A stretch of DNA of 20,009 nucleotides from positions 1 through 20,009 of the IMG/VR virus record IMGVR_UViG_3300028557_000238. One strand, written 5' to 3'. The notes beneath the pieces are model-generated. The model did not search any database. It worked only from the letters and a program-made list of their open reading frames with translations, and was not told the origin of the DNA. Positions 5,843 to 20,009 of the stretch are shown in pieces. The translations under genes and the position numbers were made by a program. How positions within the stretch are numbered: position 1 is the stretch's first letter; the number at the start of each line of letters is the position of its first letter. Source of the stretch: a virus.

Positions 5843-8577
5843 AACACCAAACGATTAGAAATTTTACAGGAATATCCGCTGGTATCGACAGCACGGATGC
5901 CAGCAGTAACAGTTTGAGTTATGCCAAAAATGTCATCTTGCGTCCCGCCGGAGCAATTAGCAGGTTGCCACCCCTCAAAAAAGTGTGGGGGTTAGCAGAG
6001 GTTCAAAATTACAAAATTCAATTGGGAATCACCGATAGCGACGGCGCAGTATTATGCAGATTTCGACAGCCAAATCCAAATTCAGAAACTCAAAACGAAA
6101 TACTGTTTGTTCACGACTTTAAAAACAATGTTCCTTTAGGTGTATTTTTTCTACAGGCCGACGCAAAAAAAGAAGAAACATCGCTGGACGATCTTGCACA
6201 ATTTATTCCAGTTAGTCCGCTCGAATCACTCACCGTTTTGAAAAAGGGACTGGCGGAAAATGAACGCTGGTTTTTCTATTCGTTTTTTGACAGTGTCCTG
6301 CTTGGCAACGGCGTAGATTTAAATCTAATTTACCAAAGGAACCGCACCGCAAATCCATTGCGCGTTCTCGGCACCGACGAGATTCCGGATGTCCCAGTCA
6401 TTACATCGGCAAGTAATACATCATACAGATCAGATGCAAGGACTGTTTTTAAATTTGCTACATCCAGATTTGGCGTAGTCACTCGTATTGCAGCCGAAAC
6501 CAAGTGGGATGCAATAACTCAAAAGCATTTCATGATTTTACGATGGACGCCCACAGATAGCGCATCGGGTTATACAATTGACTTCTCGTATGATGTTGAT
6601 TATGCAGTTAAAACCACAGTTTTTATACAGTCGGAAACAACATGGCAATTTACAGAACTCGAACCCAGTCGGCGACTTTATTTTCGTATCCGCGCTCAAT
6701 ACACCACAAATGGCGAGCTTTTTTACAGTAACTTCACCAACGGATCGCATACCACCCCCGCCTATGGGTTTGCTGGAACATCGCAAGGAATGCCGACGCA
6801 AATACCCAGCACTGGTGTTGTTTCCCAAGAATCCGAACTCAGCCTTACTGCTATAGGCACATTTCGCTATGAGCAAGGGAATAATATAAAAGTCAGATTC
6901 GCGGCATCAGGCAATGGTTTAAGCAGTTCCCGAACAGGAGAGGGGACATCCTCCGATTCTATAGAATATATTGTTAGTGGCATCGGTGCCGCAAGTCTTA
7001 ATCAATTGCGTGTTTACATTAATGGTGATCCGTTAGTAGCAAATATACTGATTGCCGGAATAAGCGGAGGTTCGGATAGTGTCGGGCTACCCAGTAAACC
7101 GGCACAGCAATTGACTGGTGGCGTCGGAACCCCAGAAGAAACATCGCAAGGGGAATTATTAGCAAACAGCGAAATTGCTTTAACTTATTTTGATCCAGGT
7201 ATTAACAATCAGGGATTAGAAAGCGCGCTAAGCGTTCCTATAAAAATTTTAACCGGAGGGATCAAAATAATAAGCCCAGTCTTTAAATCTAATGCTGATT
7301 TTTTAAGATTCTCAAAAATAAGAGTTTATTACAGAATAAATATACAAGGTTACTCAGTAGCCGGTAATACTCTACCTCCCGAAAAATGGATATTGTTGGG
7401 CGAATGCCCGAATGAACCCAATTCGACATTCGCGGCGTTTACAAGGCCATACGATTCAGAAACTGTGCTGTTACCAGAATCAGGAGGAGCAAAAATCGAT
7501 CGATTGCCACCGTGCAATGTGTTTGAATTTTGCGCGGATAGACTTTTTGCAGCAGGCAACAAGAACAGCACCAAACGCATTTGGTATTCAAACTTGGCTA
7601 CAGAAGGAGTAATTTTACCGGAGGCATTTAATATCACAAAACAATTTTTTGATATGCCGAGCAGTAAAAATGACGGCACACCGTCAAGGGTTACTTTTTT
7701 GCAGGCGCTTGACCAGACATTGCAAATCCATACCGACAAAGGGATCGTAATGATGGACGGGTTTACCTTTAATCGTCGTAACTCGCGCTCCGACTTTGGG
7801 GCACTTAACCCGGCTGCGGCCAGTATGTGGCGGTATCAAAGCTCCCCTTATGTTGGTTCTGACGGCGTCCTTTACGAAATGCAAAACCAACAAGTCCTGA
7901 AAAGTTTGATCGCAAACGAGACATCATGGGATTATATCAAGACCTTTATCGATACTGAAGATCTTATTATTAACCCAAACAGAGTAAATGTATATGGCGA
8001 TTTTACGAATCAATTAGTTTGGGTCTGGATGCCCTGTATTTTTAATAATCAAAAAAAATTAGGAGGCTTTATCTATGACTACAGAACAAAAAGCATCACC
8101 GGGCCGATTACTGGGCAAGGGTTTGTCAGTTCGACCACCATTAACAACACGGATTCGCGACTAATCGGGCAAACCGAAAGCGGGCAGTTGGTGTATCTTG
8201 ATTCGCGAGATTTGAATCTCGATAATTTTCGCGATGATTTTGTCTACACAGGGCAATTTTTCGCAACAGACAACACCCTTAGTTTTACGACAAATTTCCT
8301 GGACTGCGGATTAGCCACCACAAACAAAGTTTTTGGTGAAATCATATTTAGTCTTGTAAGGGGCAGTCAGGTGCAAAGTCTTGCAATATCGATGGAAACG
8401 GACGATGGGAAAGTAGTATCAGTAAACTATGGTTCAGTGGTTAAGGAGAAAAATAAAATCGCATTCCTTTTAGCTGGGTACAATGTAAAAATTACTTTTA
8501 ACGCAGAAACAATTCCTAACAAGCCCTTTGTAATCAGAGATTTGACAATAGGATATCAAGAATTAAAAGCCCTATGA
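5839..8577 (+). CDS. Tail nozzle / stabilisation-like protein with FN3-like insert
   Basis: The 912-residue protein starts with IRNFTGISAGIDSTDASSNS followed by SYAKNVILRPAGAISRLPPL. This is the pattern of an N-terminal segment ending in an asparagine-rich turn and a GxxxRxPG-like motif found in T7 gp12 and P22 gp10-type nozzle or stabilisation proteins. Much of the rest is alternating beta-strand sequence suggesting a propeller or platform fold. Around residues 228-300 there is a fibronectin type III-like unit (ILRWTPTDSASGYTIDF ... TTWQFTELEPSRRLYFRIRA). It overlaps both the connector-like gene and the 8574 gene by ATGA. It would sit at the distal end of the short tail and gate DNA release. 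Confidence that this is a large tail protein is high; the exact homology is inferred. Confidence 0.65.
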   Translation: MKHQTIRNFTGISAGIDSTDASSNSLSYAKNVILRPAGAISRLPPLKKVWGLAEVQNYKIQLGITDSDGAVLCRFRQPNPNSETQNEILFVHDFKNNVPLGVFFLQADAKKEETSLDDLAQFIPVSPLESLTVLKKGLAENERWFFYSFFDSVLLGNGVDLNLIYQRNRTANPLRVLGTDEIPDVPVITSASNTSYRSDARTVFKFATSRFGVVTRIAAETKWDAITQKHFMILRWTPTDSASGYTIDFSYDVDYAVKTTVFIQSETTWQFTELEPSRRLYFRIRAQYTTNGELFYSNFTNGSHTTPAYGFAGTSQGMPTQIPSTGVVSQESELSLTAIGTFRYEQGNNIKVRFAASGNGLSSSRTGEGTSSDSIEYIVSGIGAASLNQLRVYINGDPLVANILIAGISGGSDSVGLPSKPAQQLTGGVGTPEETSQGELLANSEIALTYFDPGINNQGLESALSVPIKILTGGIKIISPVFKSNADFLRFSKIRVYYRINIQGYSVAGNTLPPEKWILLGECPNEPNSTFAAFTRPYDSETVLLPESGGAKIDRLPPCNVFEFCADRLFAAGNKNSTKRIWYSNLATEGVILPEAFNITKQFFDMPSSKNDGTPSRVTFLQALDQTLQIHTDKGIVMMDGFTFNRRNSRSDFGALNPAAASMWRYQSSPYVGSDGVLYEMQNQQVLKSLIANETSWDYIKTFIDTEDLIINPNRVNVYGDFTNQLVWVWMPCIFNNQKKLGGFIYDYRTKSITGPITGQGFVSSTTINNTDSRLIGQTESGQLVYLDSRDLNLDNFRDDFVYTGQFFATDNTLSFTTNFLDCGLATTNKVFGEIIFSLVRGSQVQSLAISMETDDGKVVSVNYGSVVKEKNKIAFLLAGYNVKITFNAETIPNKPFVIRDLTIGYQELKAL

Positions 8578-9011
8578 CCAATAGCGCCGAAATAAATTAT
8601 ACAGCGACTGCCTTTGCGGCTGGTACATCAGTTATCGTACCATACCCAATCGGTTTGCAATATTTTATGTTTGATACGAGCGGCAGCCACTCCTATAAAT
8701 ACAACCAAGTGCAGGCATCAACTGCAAATTCGTTCGATATTCTTTTTGGAGCATCCCATGTGCAAATTACAAATTTGACCGGCGAGACCCTGACTGGCGC
8801 GATCATATTCAATTTGGCGCTCCATGCCCGAGAACCCTCAGATGCGATAAGTCAGAGCATACTTTTGATTGAAATACCAGGCTATGAAAATTTTCCGCAA
8901 ATCGGAACGACTGGGAGAATCTATGTGGATACCATTGTCAATAATATCTACCGCTGGACTGGGTCTGAATATGCCCCACTGCCATCAGTGATCGACGCTG
9001 GAACGGCGTGA
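8574..9011 (+). CDS. Short tail-associated protein with GRIYVDT-YRW motif
   Basis: The 145-residue protein has a beta-rich body and a C-terminal unit FPQIGTTGRIYVDTIVNNIY followed by RWTGSEYAPLPSV. This G-x-x-G-x-I-Y-V-D-x(4)N-x-x-Y-R-W-x-G-x-x-Y pattern recurs in phage tail-fibre and collagen-like proteins as a small beta module, often joining fibre shafts to the virion. It overlaps the nozzle-like gene by ATGA, so it is probably a minor tail protein or fibre adaptor. Its 3' end overlaps by 27 bp the 3' end of an opposing gene (8985-9335), and no clear bidirectional terminator separates them. Confidence 0.7.
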   Translation: MTNSAEINYTATAFAAGTSVIVPYPIGLQYFMFDTSGSHSYKYNQVQASTANSFDILFGASHVQITNLTGETLTGAIIFNLALHAREPSDAISQSILLIEIPGYENFPQIGTTGRIYVDTIVNNIYRWTGSEYAPLPSVIDAGTA

Positions 9012-9335
9012 CGCAAACTGCTCGCCTAATTCTCCCCCAACAATAATTTTTGCAGCGTCTCTCGCCGACACCCGCATTTTTAGAGCGATCTCCAAAATCT
9101 CAGTTTCACTGAAACCGAGCCTGCTGTTAAAATACACGCGGCCATCTGCAATCACGAACGACTTGGTACTGTCAACCCTATATTTCGGACCTCCCTGTTG
9201 CCTCGTTTTTGCGTGTCGAGCCTTTGATTTCGCGTTCAACTTTTCACGGTTGTCCAAGTACCACTGCCGTTTTCGCGCGCGGTCATATTCCTGATTGTTC
9301 TTCCGCCACGCCGCACTGGCTTTGCTCGCACTCAT
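8985..9335 (-). CDS. Hypothetical basic protein
   Basis: The 116-residue protein faces the structural genes. Its N-terminal third is extremely basic and helical (AWRKNNQEYDRARKRQWYLD then KLNAKSKARHAKTRQQ), like the pre-HNH or nucleic-acid-contact regions of some phage endonucleases. No HNH catalytic block follows. The C-terminal half (SETEILEIALKMRVSARDAAKI) looks like a small helical domain with possible helix-turn-helix character. It follows the RHH gene on the same strand with 42 bases between them, so the two probably form one minus-strand unit. The function is unknown; DNA or RNA binding is suggested only by charge. Confidence 0.6.
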   Translation of the reverse strand: MSASKASAAWRKNNQEYDRARKRQWYLDNREKLNAKSKARHAKTRQQGGPKYRVDSTKSFVIADGRVYFNSRLGFSETEILEIALKMRVSARDAAKIIVGGELGEQFASRRSSVDH

Positions 9336-9377
9336 AAAACAAAAAGACGCACCTTACGAAATTTGGCAACAAAAAAC

Positions 9378-9800
9378 TTACGAGGTTACTCGGTTGCTAT
9401 AATAATCGGCTACGAGCAAGATTCGCCGGTAATCGCCGCGCTTGAGATGCAGCGATACTGAATCAGGGCCGGACGCCAAGTGATACTCGGGAAACATTGC
9501 ACTCAGGAGGCTTTGAGCCTCGCTGAGAGTTTTGAATCGTGTATCGTCCAGACCCAGTTTATTCACCTTGTTTTGTTCGGCGGGTGGCAGGAAGTCAGTC
9601 TCTTCAACCACGACCCGCAGGTCACAGGGAATAATTGATTCGATGTATTTGCCGCGCGACTGAGTCCCGCGATCCGCGTCGATCCGTTGCCAGGACTGTG
9701 GCAGCATCGAGATTGAGCGGGTTAAAACTTTCCGGCCTGTGCCAGGGCCCGATTTTCTTCCAGACCCTTTACGCGCCCCTCCATGCGTTGATTTGTTCAT
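9378..9800 (-). CDS. Ribbon-helix-helix-like DNA-binding protein
   Basis: The 140-residue protein begins HGGARKGSGRKSGPGTGRK, a glycine/arginine/lysine stretch common at the N-terminus of small phage DNA-binding proteins. It continues with TRSISMLPQSWQRIDADRG then QSRGKYIESII, which fits a ribbon-helix-helix domain: a strand of alternating residues followed by two helices, the second starting at a Ser/Arg-rich turn. The remaining about 75 residues are not recognised (LSEAQSLLSAMFPEYHLASG and a beta-rich end). The gene points against the virion genes, next to the presumed cargo. Its start overlaps a tiny upstream ORF by ATGA (9797-9800). A transcription regulator of this cassette is the best guess. 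Confidence 0.68.
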   Translation of the reverse strand: MNKSTHGGARKGSGRKSGPGTGRKVLTRSISMLPQSWQRIDADRGTQSRGKYIESIIPCDLRVVVEETDFLPPAEQNKVNKLGLDDTRFKTLSEAQSLLSAMFPEYHLASGPDSVSLHLKRGDYRRILLVADYYSNRVTS

Positions 9801-9853
9801 TGGATTTTCGCTTCTACTGTACCTGCATTAGTCGATATTTCAGCTTTTGACAT
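9797..9853 (-). CDS. Possible 18-residue leader ORF
   Basis: On the minus strand an ATG at 9853-9851 opens an 18-codon frame (MSKAEISTNAGTVEAKIQ). It ends at TGA 9799-9797, overlapping the start of the RHH-like gene exactly as ATGA, the junction used throughout this genome. No good Shine-Dalgarno site precedes it (A-rich sequence only), so translation is uncertain. It could couple or regulate expression of the RHH gene, or be a chance frame. Confidence 0.3.
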   Translation of the reverse strand: MSKAEISTNAGTVEAKIQ

Positions 9854-9941
9854 AGGTTTTTTTATAATGATGTTGTGTTTCATAGGTTGAGTTCAGGGTG
9901 GGGTTCGTGTTGTGTTGTGTTCTGTTGTTTTTTGGTTTGGT

Positions 9942-10607: not shown

Positions 10608-11087
10608 ATGCAAACACATCAACTCACCCCATCGCTCCAACTCACCACCGACCACCCCGCAAGCAGCCACGGCATCCCCGTGCTCGTGACCAACAAGAAC
10701 CAGACAGACCTCGAAGGCATCCCTGCATGCCTCGGCCCCGCCGACATGCTCGAATACGGAGGCAACCTCTGGCCTGCGGCGAAGCATGTGCAACGCTTTG
10801 CCAAGCACCACCCCGACAACATGGAACTCCAGGAAGCCGCCGCAGCCTTCTGCCGCCAGTGGCCCGACGGACCGCAAACGGAACTGACATCCAAACTACC
10901 AGCTGGAGCAAGAAGCCACTTAGACGCACCTTGTCCAAAGTGCGGCGGCATCCTCATTTCGCGTGAGGCAGGGTCGGTGCCCGGCGAGGTGTGCTGCGAG
11001 GACTGCGGATGGCAAGGCACCTGGAAGGGCACGGAGAACCCCTGGGACATGGAGACCGGCGGCGCTGTAGCGCGATTCGAACAATAA
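10608..11087 (+). CDS. Zinc-ribbon protein, function unknown
   Basis: The 159-residue protein ends in a clear zinc ribbon: CPKCGG (C109, C112) and CCEDCGWQG (C130, C133). Two CxxC knuckles about 18 residues apart precede an aromatic, glycine-rich tail. The first 100 residues are not recognised; they include LVTNKNQTDLEGIPACLGPA and a helical segment HVQRFAKHHPDNMELQEAAA. There is no Shine-Dalgarno site before ATG 10608, only A-rich sequence. It is transcribed toward attP and is followed by hairpins and a terminator at 11229-11260. It may bind nucleic acid or act as a small adaptor protein. Confidence 0.75.
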   Translation: MQTHQLTPSLQLTTDHPASSHGIPVLVTNKNQTDLEGIPACLGPADMLEYGGNLWPAAKHVQRFAKHHPDNMELQEAAAAFCRQWPDGPQTELTSKLPAGARSHLDAPCPKCGGILISREAGSVPGEVCCEDCGWQGTWKGTENPWDMETGGAVARFEQ

Positions 11088-18126: not shown

Positions 18127-19641
18127 ATGCAATACCCTCAGAAAGAAAGCGCCGTCGTCGGCTACCTGAGCATCTGCGGATTTGCTGGTGTGCCGAAGTC
18201 GGCCGTGGTGGATCCGGAGGCATTTGCCAGTGTGCTGAACGGTCTCTACTACGCCGCCGCGCACCGGCTGCACCACGCTGGCAAGGCGGTGGTGGGTGCC
18301 AAGATCCTCGAGGTCATCGCGGCGGAGCCGTATTGGCTGAAGATGGCGGAGGCCGAGGCACAGGCCGCCGGCATGGTGTCTTGGCAAGATGGCGTGACAT
18401 TGGCAGACACCTCGCTGGGGTTTAGCTCGGCGGGCGGCGCAATCGTCACCGAATACCTGGAGGACATTGCAGCGGCAGCAGGCACCCGCAAAGCTACCCA
18501 AATCGGCCGGAAACTGGCGGATGGCAGCATGGCCGTGGCGGACGCCCTCGAGGAACTCAAGCAACTGGCCAAGCCCAAGTCGACGATGGCAGGCGTTGAA
18601 ATGCATACCTTCGAGCAGCTCTTCGCCTACACGCCGAAGGATGACGCGAGCACGCTGGTAGGCGACCGCTGGCTGTGCCGTGGCGGGCAGCTCCTGCTGC
18701 TCGGTCAGTCCGGCATCGGCAAATCCAGCTACACACTCCAGCAGGCGATGACTTGGGCGCTGGGCATGCCATTTTTCGGCATGAAACCACGGCAACCGCT
18801 GAAGTGCCTGATCGTGCAGGCGGAGAACGATATGGGCGACATGGCCGAGGTGGTGCAGGGCGTGAAGACCTATGTGGTAGACGGGAGCAAGCTGGACGAA
18901 CGCACCGCGCTCGAGCAACTCAAGCGCAACATTATCGTCGCACGGGTCACAGCACAGACCGGCGAGGCATTCATCGAGGTGATCCGCGAGCTGATCGCTA
19001 AGCACGGGCCATTCGACCTGGTCTACGGGGATCCGCTGCTGTCATACATCGGCGATGACATTTCGCAACAGGCTGTGGCCTCGCACTTCTTGCGCGAGCT
19101 CTGCAACCCGCTGGCATTCGAGCACAATTTCGCATGGGTATGGTCTCACCACACCGGCAAGCCGCAGAGCGATAGCAAGAGCCGAGCGCATTGGAATGCA
19201 AACGACTACGCCTACATCGGCCTCGGCTCCTCCGAACTCACCAACTGGGCTCGCGCCATTGCGGTGCTCCAGACGACCAAGCACGAAGGCATCTTCAAGG
19301 TTCTCCTGGCGAAGCGTGGCAACCGCGCTGGCGTAGTGGACGAACACGGCCACCCGACCACCGACATCATCATCAAGCACGCCGACCGTGGACTGCATTG
19401 GGAACCAGCCACACTCCCCGAGGAGACCGAGGAAGAGGGCAAGTCGCAGGGCAAGTCGGGACGCACACCGAAGCTCAGCCCTCTCCAAGAGGCCGAGATC
19501 ATTGCCAAGCACGCCATATGGCCGGATGGCGCCCGTGGATTCTATAGCGAGATGAAGACCAAATACGGCGTCTCTCGCGACACAATCGAGCGCATACTCA
19601 GGCGCTCCAGAAACTCAACCGAAACCCAAAAAGCAGCATGA
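18127..19641 (+). CDS. RepA/DnaB-type replicative helicase with C-terminal HTH
   Basis: The 504-residue protein joins an N-terminal helical domain (residues about 1-150, like the DnaB N-domain with PEAFASVLNGLYYAAAHRLH) to a RecA-type motor. Walker A is GQSGIGKSS (about residues 193-201), Walker B is DLVYGDPL (about residues 297-303), the sensor stretch is WVWSHHTGKP, and GSSELTNWARA is a RepA/AAA_25 feature. The last 100 residues after an acidic linker contain a helix-turn-helix (FYSEMKTKYGVSRDTIERIL), often seen in phage helicases that recognise their origin. No polymerase or separate primase gene is in the window. The iteron array starts 20 bases after its stop, so this protein may bind it or be loaded there. 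Confidence 0.85.
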   Translation: MQYPQKESAVVGYLSICGFAGVPKSAVVDPEAFASVLNGLYYAAAHRLHHAGKAVVGAKILEVIAAEPYWLKMAEAEAQAAGMVSWQDGVTLADTSLGFSSAGGAIVTEYLEDIAAAAGTRKATQIGRKLADGSMAVADALEELKQLAKPKSTMAGVEMHTFEQLFAYTPKDDASTLVGDRWLCRGGQLLLLGQSGIGKSSYTLQQAMTWALGMPFFGMKPRQPLKCLIVQAENDMGDMAEVVQGVKTYVVDGSKLDERTALEQLKRNIIVARVTAQTGEAFIEVIRELIAKHGPFDLVYGDPLLSYIGDDISQQAVASHFLRELCNPLAFEHNFAWVWSHHTGKPQSDSKSRAHWNANDYAYIGLGSSELTNWARAIAVLQTTKHEGIFKVLLAKRGNRAGVVDEHGHPTTDIIIKHADRGLHWEPATLPEETEEEGKSQGKSGRTPKLSPLQEAEIIAKHAIWPDGARGFYSEMKTKYGVSRDTIERILRRSRNSTETQKAA

Positions 19642-19660
19642 GCAACCATGAAAACAAGTG

Positions 19661-19819
19661 CCGCAAAATTACCGCAGAATGACCGCAGAATAACAATTGT
19701 GCGGCACATGGATGACTGCCGCAAAATAACTGCCGCAGATACCCCCTATAAAGGGGGGTTATCTGCGGCACTTCGTTATTTTTCGGCGTCGTCATTTCCA
19801 ACCATGACTACCGCAAAAT
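19661..19819 (+). other. Iteron array, candidate replication origin
   Basis: CCGCARAAT-type units are CCGCAAAAT 19661-19669, CCGCAGAAT 19672-19680 and CCGCAGAAT 19683-19691 (each start 11 bp after the last), the reverse copy CCGCACAAT at 19696-19704, CCGCAAAAT 19719-19727, CCGCAGATA 19733-19741 and its reverse at 19760-19768, a degenerate reverse copy at 19778-19786, and CCGCAAAAT 19811-19819. Reading frames through the region are broken by stops, and the spacing follows the DNA helix, as in plasmid and phage origins where an initiator binds iterons. Location right after the helicase gene supports an origin. A regulator operator array is the alternative. Confidence 0.75.
19731..19770 (+). other. 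Long imperfect hairpin within the iteron array
   Basis: TGCCGCAGATA (19731-19741) pairs with TATCTGCGGCA (19760-19770). The stem continues through CCCCC (19742-19746) and GGGGG, interrupted by a single bulged T, around a short A/T-rich loop, for about 16 pairs in all. Its base is built from an inverted iteron pair. The A/T-rich sequence after it has T residues at 19776-19783 but no tight T run. A cruciform used in origin melting or primer binding, or a terminator for the early operon, are possible. Confidence 0.75.
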
Positions 19820-19825
19820 AGAATT

Positions 19826-20009
19826 ATGCTGGAAACAAACAAAGACCCCAAGATCACCTGCCAATCCTGCGGCCGCGAATGGCAGGACCACCCAGGCGTC
19901 GCTCACACCTGCCGACTCGCCACCGATTTGGCCGATTCCCTCCGCTGGGCACTCAACCATGTCGAGCCCCCAGAATACACCCGCGACATCGGTGAGCAGG
20001 AAATCTACT
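19826..20009 (+). CDS. Start of a zinc-finger-like protein (partial)
   Basis: The frame from ATG 19826 runs off the right edge, 61 residues visible. It opens with a possible zinc site CQSCGREWQDHPGVAHTC (C-x2-C ... H-x-C) and continues with a mainly helical segment (RLATDLADSLRWALNHVEPP). It starts just beyond the last iteron, so its promoter would lie in or beside the array. The function is not recognised, and the C-terminal part is outside the window. Confidence 0.6.
   Translation, partial: MLETNKDPKITCQSCGREWQDHPGVAHTCRLATDLADSLRWALNHVEPPEYTRDIGEQEIY

Follow-up and report, generated by a model that had tools for sequence, protein, structure and literature searches.

The organizing principle of the locus described here is already known from SaPI Rep and SCCmec Cch2 (downstream iterons), pRN1 (stem-loop) and PLE (modular swap). 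The C-terminal domain of SaPI Rep reads an origin that lies directly downstream, and SCCmec Cch2 does likewise (PMC7581432). The origin of the IncQ plasmid RSF1010 comprises iterons plus the stem-loops ssiA and ssiB, the iterons being read by RepC and the DNA unwound by RepA (PMC4234260), whereas pRN1 has, downstream of its replication gene, an essential 100-nt stem-loop whose shape is preserved despite poor sequence conservation (PMC4234260). In the PLE satellites of Vibrio cholerae, the DNA-binding domain of RepA and the origin covary, are swapped, and have been found by experiment to be mutually specific; PLE origins are cut by the nuclease Odn, which has been proposed as the selective force (PMC8263062). 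The alpha protein of satellite phage P4 carries primase, helicase and origin binding on one polypeptide (mentioned in PMC4234260). P4 also has a second, distant cis site.

The stretch of DNA analysed here (the window) is 20,009 bases of an IMG/VR virus record. From about 14.4 kb onward, its + strand encodes a replication and recombination module that includes a Sak4-like annealing protein, a PD-(D/E)XK exonuclease, a RuvC-like resolvase and a helicase of 504 residues (18127-19641, + strand; Pfam AAA_25 at residues 177-347, E 2.5e-16), followed by the start of a next gene (19826-20009, + strand) that leaves the window. The helicase consists of a helical N-terminal part, a RecA-fold SF4 motor, a linker and a C-terminal helix-turn-helix (HTH) domain. 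Because a sequence search of solved structures with the helicase returned just weak matches in the Walker region, a fold search was used, with an AlphaFold2 model built from 35 homologues (mean pLDDT 78, about 90 in the motor) that superseded an earlier model from eight sequences (pLDDT 56). The closest solved fold to the motor (residues 155-436 by VIA-align against 1olo/1nlf, 18589-19434, + strand) is RSF1010 RepA (Z 23.5, 2.4 Å over about 232 residues), the runners-up being Twinkle (Z 19.3) and DnaB (Z about 19), and the Walker A motif GQSGIGKSS is conserved. By both fold and intact Walker A, the motor is predicted to be a hexameric helicase of the RSF1010 RepA type. The linker (residues 434-450, 19426-19476, + strand) is disordered in the model (pLDDT about 50), and the three-helix HTH, the presumed word reader (19480-19614, + strand; helices at residues 452-464, 472-480 and 484-496), is modelled with a confidence of 77-87 over most of the domain. 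N-termini differ among related helicases, and in L053 a DnaG-type zinc ribbon forms part of the helicase polypeptide itself.

Immediately 3' of the helicase stop lies an array of ten copies or close variants of the word CCGCARAAT, six forward and four reverse, which extends from about 19656 to 19831. Five of the six exact matches to this word in the 20 kb fall within the array, whereas shuffled versions of the window have a mean of 0.85 matches and none of 100 reached six. The exact copies, all on the + strand, are word 1 (CCGCAAAAT, 19661-19669), words 2 and 3 (both CCGCAGAAT, 19672-19680 and 19683-19691), word 5 (CCGCAAAAT, 19719-19727) and word 9 (CCGCAAAAT, 19811-19819), with the starts of words 1 to 3 separated by 11 bp each. 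The near-copies are word 6 on the + strand (CCGCAGATA, 19733-19741) and, on the - strand, word 4 (CCGCACAAT, 19696-19704), word 7 (CCGCAGATA, 19760-19768), word 8 (CCGAAAAAT, 19778-19786) and the degenerate word 10 (CAGCATAAT, 19823-19831), whose counterpart in several relatives (L005, L008 and L020) is a full inverted word. The copies are arranged as two long inverted repeats. In hairpin 1 (19655-19710, arms 19655-19670 and 19695-19710), word 4 pairs with word 1, and words 2 and 3 lie between them. Hairpin 2 (19712-19797), identified by folding and compensatory pairs, is an imperfect long inverted repeat with words 5 and 6 in its left arm and words 7 and 8 in its right arm (word 7 pairing with word 6 and word 8 with word 5), capped by a GC tip (CCCCCTATAAAGGGGGG, 19742-19758) in which a C-run, a T-A loop and a G-run are kept in most relatives. 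The array folds far better than its shuffles (z -7.75, with 0 of 200 as good). A first, sequence-only reading had described an array at 19661-19819 whose first three words are 11 bp apart, with further copies in both orientations and nothing protein-coding to explain them. The spacing and the two orientations were confirmed; the array is longer than described, and the two long inverted repeats had been missed. An open reading frame of 57 aa (19648-19821) does overlap the array, yet a coding role for it, which was given no separate test, is disfavoured by the whole-array changes of word described below and by the hairpin structure.

Comparison with the systems above indicates both a shared layout and a different motor. 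Like SaPI Rep and SCCmec Cch2, which have been called self-loading (PMC7581432), the phage helicase has a C-terminal reader and short repeats just 3' of its own gene, so that the SaPI Rep-type layout of C-terminal reader and downstream origin is matched, with binding and origin activity inferred. The SaPI Rep and SCCmec Cch2 motors, however, are of the DUF927 and Primase_Cterm/D5-like types, neither of which is present in the phage protein, an AAA_25 helicase with the RecA fold of RSF1010 RepA; moreover, unlike SaPI and SCCmec, the phage has its words largely in hairpin stems. RSF1010 supplies the closest motor fold, but its iteron binder is the separate protein RepC, whereas that of the window phage is apparently fused to the helicase; the RSF1010 layout of separate RepC and separate primase RepB' is not matched, the HTH being fused to the helicase in the window and its close relatives and the DnaG-type zinc ribbon of L053 being part of the helicase polypeptide. 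ORF904 of pRN1 resembles the phage helicase in having a C-terminal winged helix and a stem-loop just downstream, but is an SF3 helicase with an archaeal-type primase, and no iterons are reported at its origin (PMC4234260). The PLE binder is an N-terminal RepA_N initiator domain that reads semi-palindromic iterons of about 30 bp, as against the HTH and short words of the phage, and the helicase type of P4 alpha also differs from that of the phage.

A scan of viral contigs carrying the helicase gave 70 loci. In the approximately 50 that have the HTH tail and sequence past the gene, the same plan is found behind the helicase stop: several direct copies, in many cases three spaced at 11 bp, are followed by one inverted copy, further direct copies, a GC tip, inverted copies and finally one direct copy. 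The words themselves vary among close relatives (TGCCGCAAAAT, CTCCGCAAAAT, TGTCCAGAAAT, CCGAAAAAT and TGGAAAAAT), and a switch of word between phages affects every copy in the array together. Distant relatives, which are found in viral contigs and in assemblies of Verrucomicrobia, Lentisphaerae, Kiritimatiellaeota and Planctomycetes, carry further words (among them TAGTGCA, GGACAAA, AGTCTCA, TGGAACA and TGCCAAA). The helicase is present in 23 of 388 sampled genomes from the phylum of a Verrucomicrobiia assembly, several of them with an array of their own. Where relatives have this helicase with its HTH tail, an array almost always directly adjoins the gene, as was to be checked for the motif; absence or random scattering of the repeat in relatives, which would have refuted the sequence-only reading, is not what was observed, since the layout is kept, though the word itself differs between phages.

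The extent of this conservation was also assessed on cluster representatives. In 36 of 63 representatives, no other 240-bp stretch of the locus is as word-repetitive as the 240 bp that follow the helicase, and in 37 of the 63 these 240 bp are equalled by at most 1 of 100 shuffles. An obvious array (one word at least four times) is found in 42 of 84 representatives, with 34 distinct words, 39 of the 42 having their word in both orientations; the median folding z is -4.95 in these 42 and -0.9 in the rest of the 84. All of these array counts are lower bounds, because the simple 7-mer count fails on A-rich words (L174, L177 and L188). By simple word count, about half of the 84 representatives have no clear array; A-rich words, displaced arrays or a split-off binder account for some of these but not for the others. 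Among relatives, 98.2% of stem cells are paired and 11 pairs have changes on both sides (48 both-side changes observed versus 17.9 in shuffles, with slid controls collapsing). Many of these both-side changes represent the shared change of word class, but pair 90/173 lies outside the words. Compensatory pairing is no proof that the hairpins form, because a palindrome read as duplex DNA gives the same pattern. Neither the helicase nor the array has a match in 50,697 named phage records, and searches of named phages, distant DNA and plasmids gave no match save helicases of Wolbachia WO and Arthrobacter at about 25% identity; the two of these inspected (L304 and L305) have no comparable array.

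The word is co-inherited with the HTH. Twenty-eight close relatives were divided into class A (TGCCGCA, n = 15) and class B (CTCCGCA, n = 13), and the ratio of between-class to within-class divergence was measured in 60-bp bins. This ratio is 0.91-0.96 in every bin of 18127-19326, indicating no linkage to the word, 1.1-1.2 over 19327-19446, and 2.0-3.9 over 19447-19806, being 2.0 already at 19447; it falls to 1.3 at 19807 and is back to 0.92 from 19867. Correlation with array distance (Mantel r) is 0.92 for the HTH codons, as against 0.14 in the remainder of the helicase, 0.17 in the next gene and 0.22 in the region 400-800 bp downstream of the helicase; when core distance is controlled for, the HTH remains at 0.92 and the next gene drops to 0.10. 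Some co-inheritance of neighbours such as the HTH and the array is expected from linkage alone, but linkage alone is insufficient, because the next gene, equally near the array, does not co-vary with the word.

A nearly isogenic pair delimits the exchanged tract. The window and L010 differ at 123 of 1738 aligned bp, and 121 of these differences fall inside 19412-19840, leaving only 2 in about 1,310 aligned bases outside; therefore the HTH and the array move as one specificity cassette. Within it, the two phages share the 36 bp encoding helix 2 (FYSEMKTKYGVS) without a difference, whereas the array and portions of helices 1 and 3 have been replaced. The left boundary of the cassette falls in the disordered linker. 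A third cassette is seen in L038, the helicase of which is of the window type to about residue 385 and then has an L046-type tail with a TGTCCA array, beyond which the next gene is again of the window type. On the evidence of anatomy, conservation, co-inheritance and swap, HTH and array are exchanged between phages as one cassette.

The residues with non-overlapping sets between the two word classes are 456, 460, 461, 469, 484, 488 and 492, plus the tail, and thus lie mainly in helices 1 (in part) and 3 of the HTH. At residues 484/488/492, class A has R/E/R where class B has G or H/K/D or N. Their spacing of four on the last helix is approximately one helical turn, as on one face of a recognition helix, and this helix (19576-19614, + strand) is assigned as such from the structure model and the class-separating residues. 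The array is very probably the DNA that the C-terminal HTH of this helicase specifically binds, a strong inference made without binding data.

One branch (L057, L060 and L066) has evidently a different arrangement: its helicase lacks the HTH tail, an independent ORF of about 114 aa comes next, and beyond that ORF lie a hairpin and repeats, for instance AGGATGACGAT, spaced at 11 bp. In this respect the branch resembles RSF1010, which likewise has a separate binder. More broadly, tail-less helicases (L055-L070, for example L060 and L066) are followed by a separate ORF of about 100-115 aa with MPPLxHDRI or a similar sequence, several with 11-bp repeats. The reader has apparently been split off as a protein of its own in these tail-less loci, although this is inferred.

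With short direct repeats at near helical pitch, no evident coding function and a position adjoining the gene of the putative initiator, the array has the features of an iteron origin, and is likely to be the replication origin of the phage, an inference for which there are no coverage, nascent-strand or experimental data. The helicase would then be an initiator-helicase, an RSF1010 RepA-like motor with an origin-reading domain of its own and a cognate iteron-plus-hairpin origin adjoining its gene; this is the favoured reading, with binding, self-loading and firing all inferred. Both proposals of the sequence-only reading are supported, namely that the C-terminal HTH could be the initiator domain (the word co-varies with exactly that domain, binding being inferred) and that the array acts as an origin, although initiation there is still an inference. 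As to the GC-skew check that it had called for, cumulative GC skew in near-complete relatives has one sign change at the array or no more than about 3 kb from it, and a second about 7-10 kb upstream; the array, however, marks the cumulative maximum, whereas the usual bidirectional origin is a minimum. This is not the textbook pattern, and gene modules or transcription may be its cause; GC skew was rejected as proof of an origin, being ambiguous.

The proposed mechanism is that the HTHs of a helicase ring would bind the CCGCARAAT words and so concentrate the motor at the array. The 11-bp pitch would set words 1 to 3 on one face of the helix, the inverted words would permit two rings facing opposite ways, and phased and inverted words together would fix the number and direction of the rings. 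The palindromic hairpin region may supply single-stranded DNA for loading, perhaps also for priming, and the helicase would load itself and recruit or carry a primase. Because the HTH codons and the array are adjacent, reader and words would be exchanged as one cassette, leaving each phage with a private origin. Strong pressure for private origins is suggested, as has been shown for PLE satellites and Odn (PMC8263062), and word diversity is plausibly driven by replication conflict, by analogy with PLE, although this force has not been shown for these phages.

Alternative functions of the array were considered. An operator or terminator, with the HTH tail repressing the helicase operon or the next gene, hairpin 2 ending transcription and the origin lying elsewhere, would also fit the HTH/word pair; the next gene, starting at 19826, begins within the last word, and T-rich sequence follows the hairpin in some relatives (L177 and L152). 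This is unlikely, however, as the array is downstream of the helicase gene, the hairpins of L084, L153 and L075 lack a T-tract, repressor operators seldom require as many as ten words and two hairpins, and in pRN1 mutation of the terminator is harmless while the stem-loop is essential (PMC4234260). A regulatory role of the same binding is not excluded, and origin and operator roles could possibly coexist. An allelic explanation, in which the linkage is coincidental and a 400-bp tract has two ancient alleles that recombine en bloc with no functional pairing, is supported by the fact that any exchange of the tract carries the adjacent HTH codons and array along. It is all but ruled out by the limits of linkage, which on many helicase backgrounds lie at the far edge of the array and within the linker preceding the HTH, by the changing together of all words of an array, and by the concentration of HTH changes in helix 3 and part of helix 1.

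Two further proposals appear very unlikely. Terminase genes lie within a few kb downstream in relatives, and cos sites too contain repeats, so that the array might be a packaging site (cos or pac) read by the small terminase subunit; but a packaging site should track the terminase, and the array follows the helicase instead. The same architecture is found beside two unrelated large terminases (Terminase_6N in L003, GpA in L042), the region 400-800 bp downstream barely correlates with the array in comparison with the HTH (see above), and a better candidate for cos is offered by a conserved, G-rich intergenic site that lies about 1.3 kb downstream. If the array were instead a structured RNA (a 3' UTR or small RNA) in which the words are merely stem sequence, this would account for its strong fold and for the pairing and both-side changes described above. 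Words 2 and 3, however, are at 11-bp pitch and unstemmed, yet change with the others; the link to a DNA-binding-looking HTH would be left unexplained; and inverted words recognized as duplex DNA yield an identical compensatory pattern.

To return to the initiator-helicase reading, the combination of an RSF1010 RepA-like motor with a reader/origin cassette, in an uncultured phage group that has no counterpart in named phage records and along with dozens of natural word/reader pairs and a near-isogenic swap, was not found in the open-access literature searched. This motor type and the numerous natural pairs seem not to have been described before. Placement of ring helicases of the DnaB/RepA type is usually credited to separate loaders or initiators, whereas the motor here appears to be self-addressed, and matched reader/address pairs make helicase self-loading and an HTH recognition code testable by simple swaps. 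Array/helicase pairs could also supply orthogonal origins for engineering. A bolder reading is that these loci represent a large and so far undescribed group of initiator-helicases, SF4 enzymes of the DnaB/RepA type that find their own target, in phages from Verrucomicrobiota and neighbouring phyla. Each would have a private, exchangeable reader and an adjacent hairpin-iteron origin, the words being in stems for re-recognition on refolded single strands after unwinding. As a joint claim this is tentative, the balance of evidence falling slightly short of it; if true, replication conflict among mobile elements would have shaped dozens of initiator/origin pairs that are orthogonal by nature.

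Several minor features of the window and its relatives were observed. GC skew in the window is positive from near the integrase (cumulative minimum at 10960), mostly so up to the helicase, and negative toward the window end. L039, L041 and L042 have extra small hairpins of the same word ahead of the standard array, in the first 150 bp or so after the helicase stop. Upstream of the large terminase, L003 (approximately 7790-7900) has a conserved intergenic block (AGGGGGGGGAGGGGGGTCGGTCCGCTGGCTCCGCAAAATTACCCCC), which other relatives have in the same place, about 1.3 kb past the stop codon of the helicase; it does not follow word class, and may be a cos site. Among isolated word matches elsewhere in near-complete relatives, the recurring one about 1.3 kb downstream was rejected as part of the module: it lies in a G-rich intergenic block and contains CTCCGCAAAAT in both word classes. 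The large terminases of L003 (8774-10420, Terminase_6N) and L042 (8623-10353, GpA) are unrelated but lie behind homologous replication modules, which indicates module exchange between phage lineages. L008 has at least five tandem small paralogous genes starting MSD (mostly MSDTPETDA) at 8170-9889, and L003 has one MSD gene at the matching position, suggesting a change in copy number. The slot upstream of the helicase is variable, containing by visual inspection a C5-methyltransferase-like gene in L003 (4273-4995) and a different, resolvase-like gene in L008 (4447-5001). The records behind L017, L020 and L040 (G003, G004 and G007) have identical 127-bp ends, as expected of assemblies of circular genomes of about 41-42 kb.
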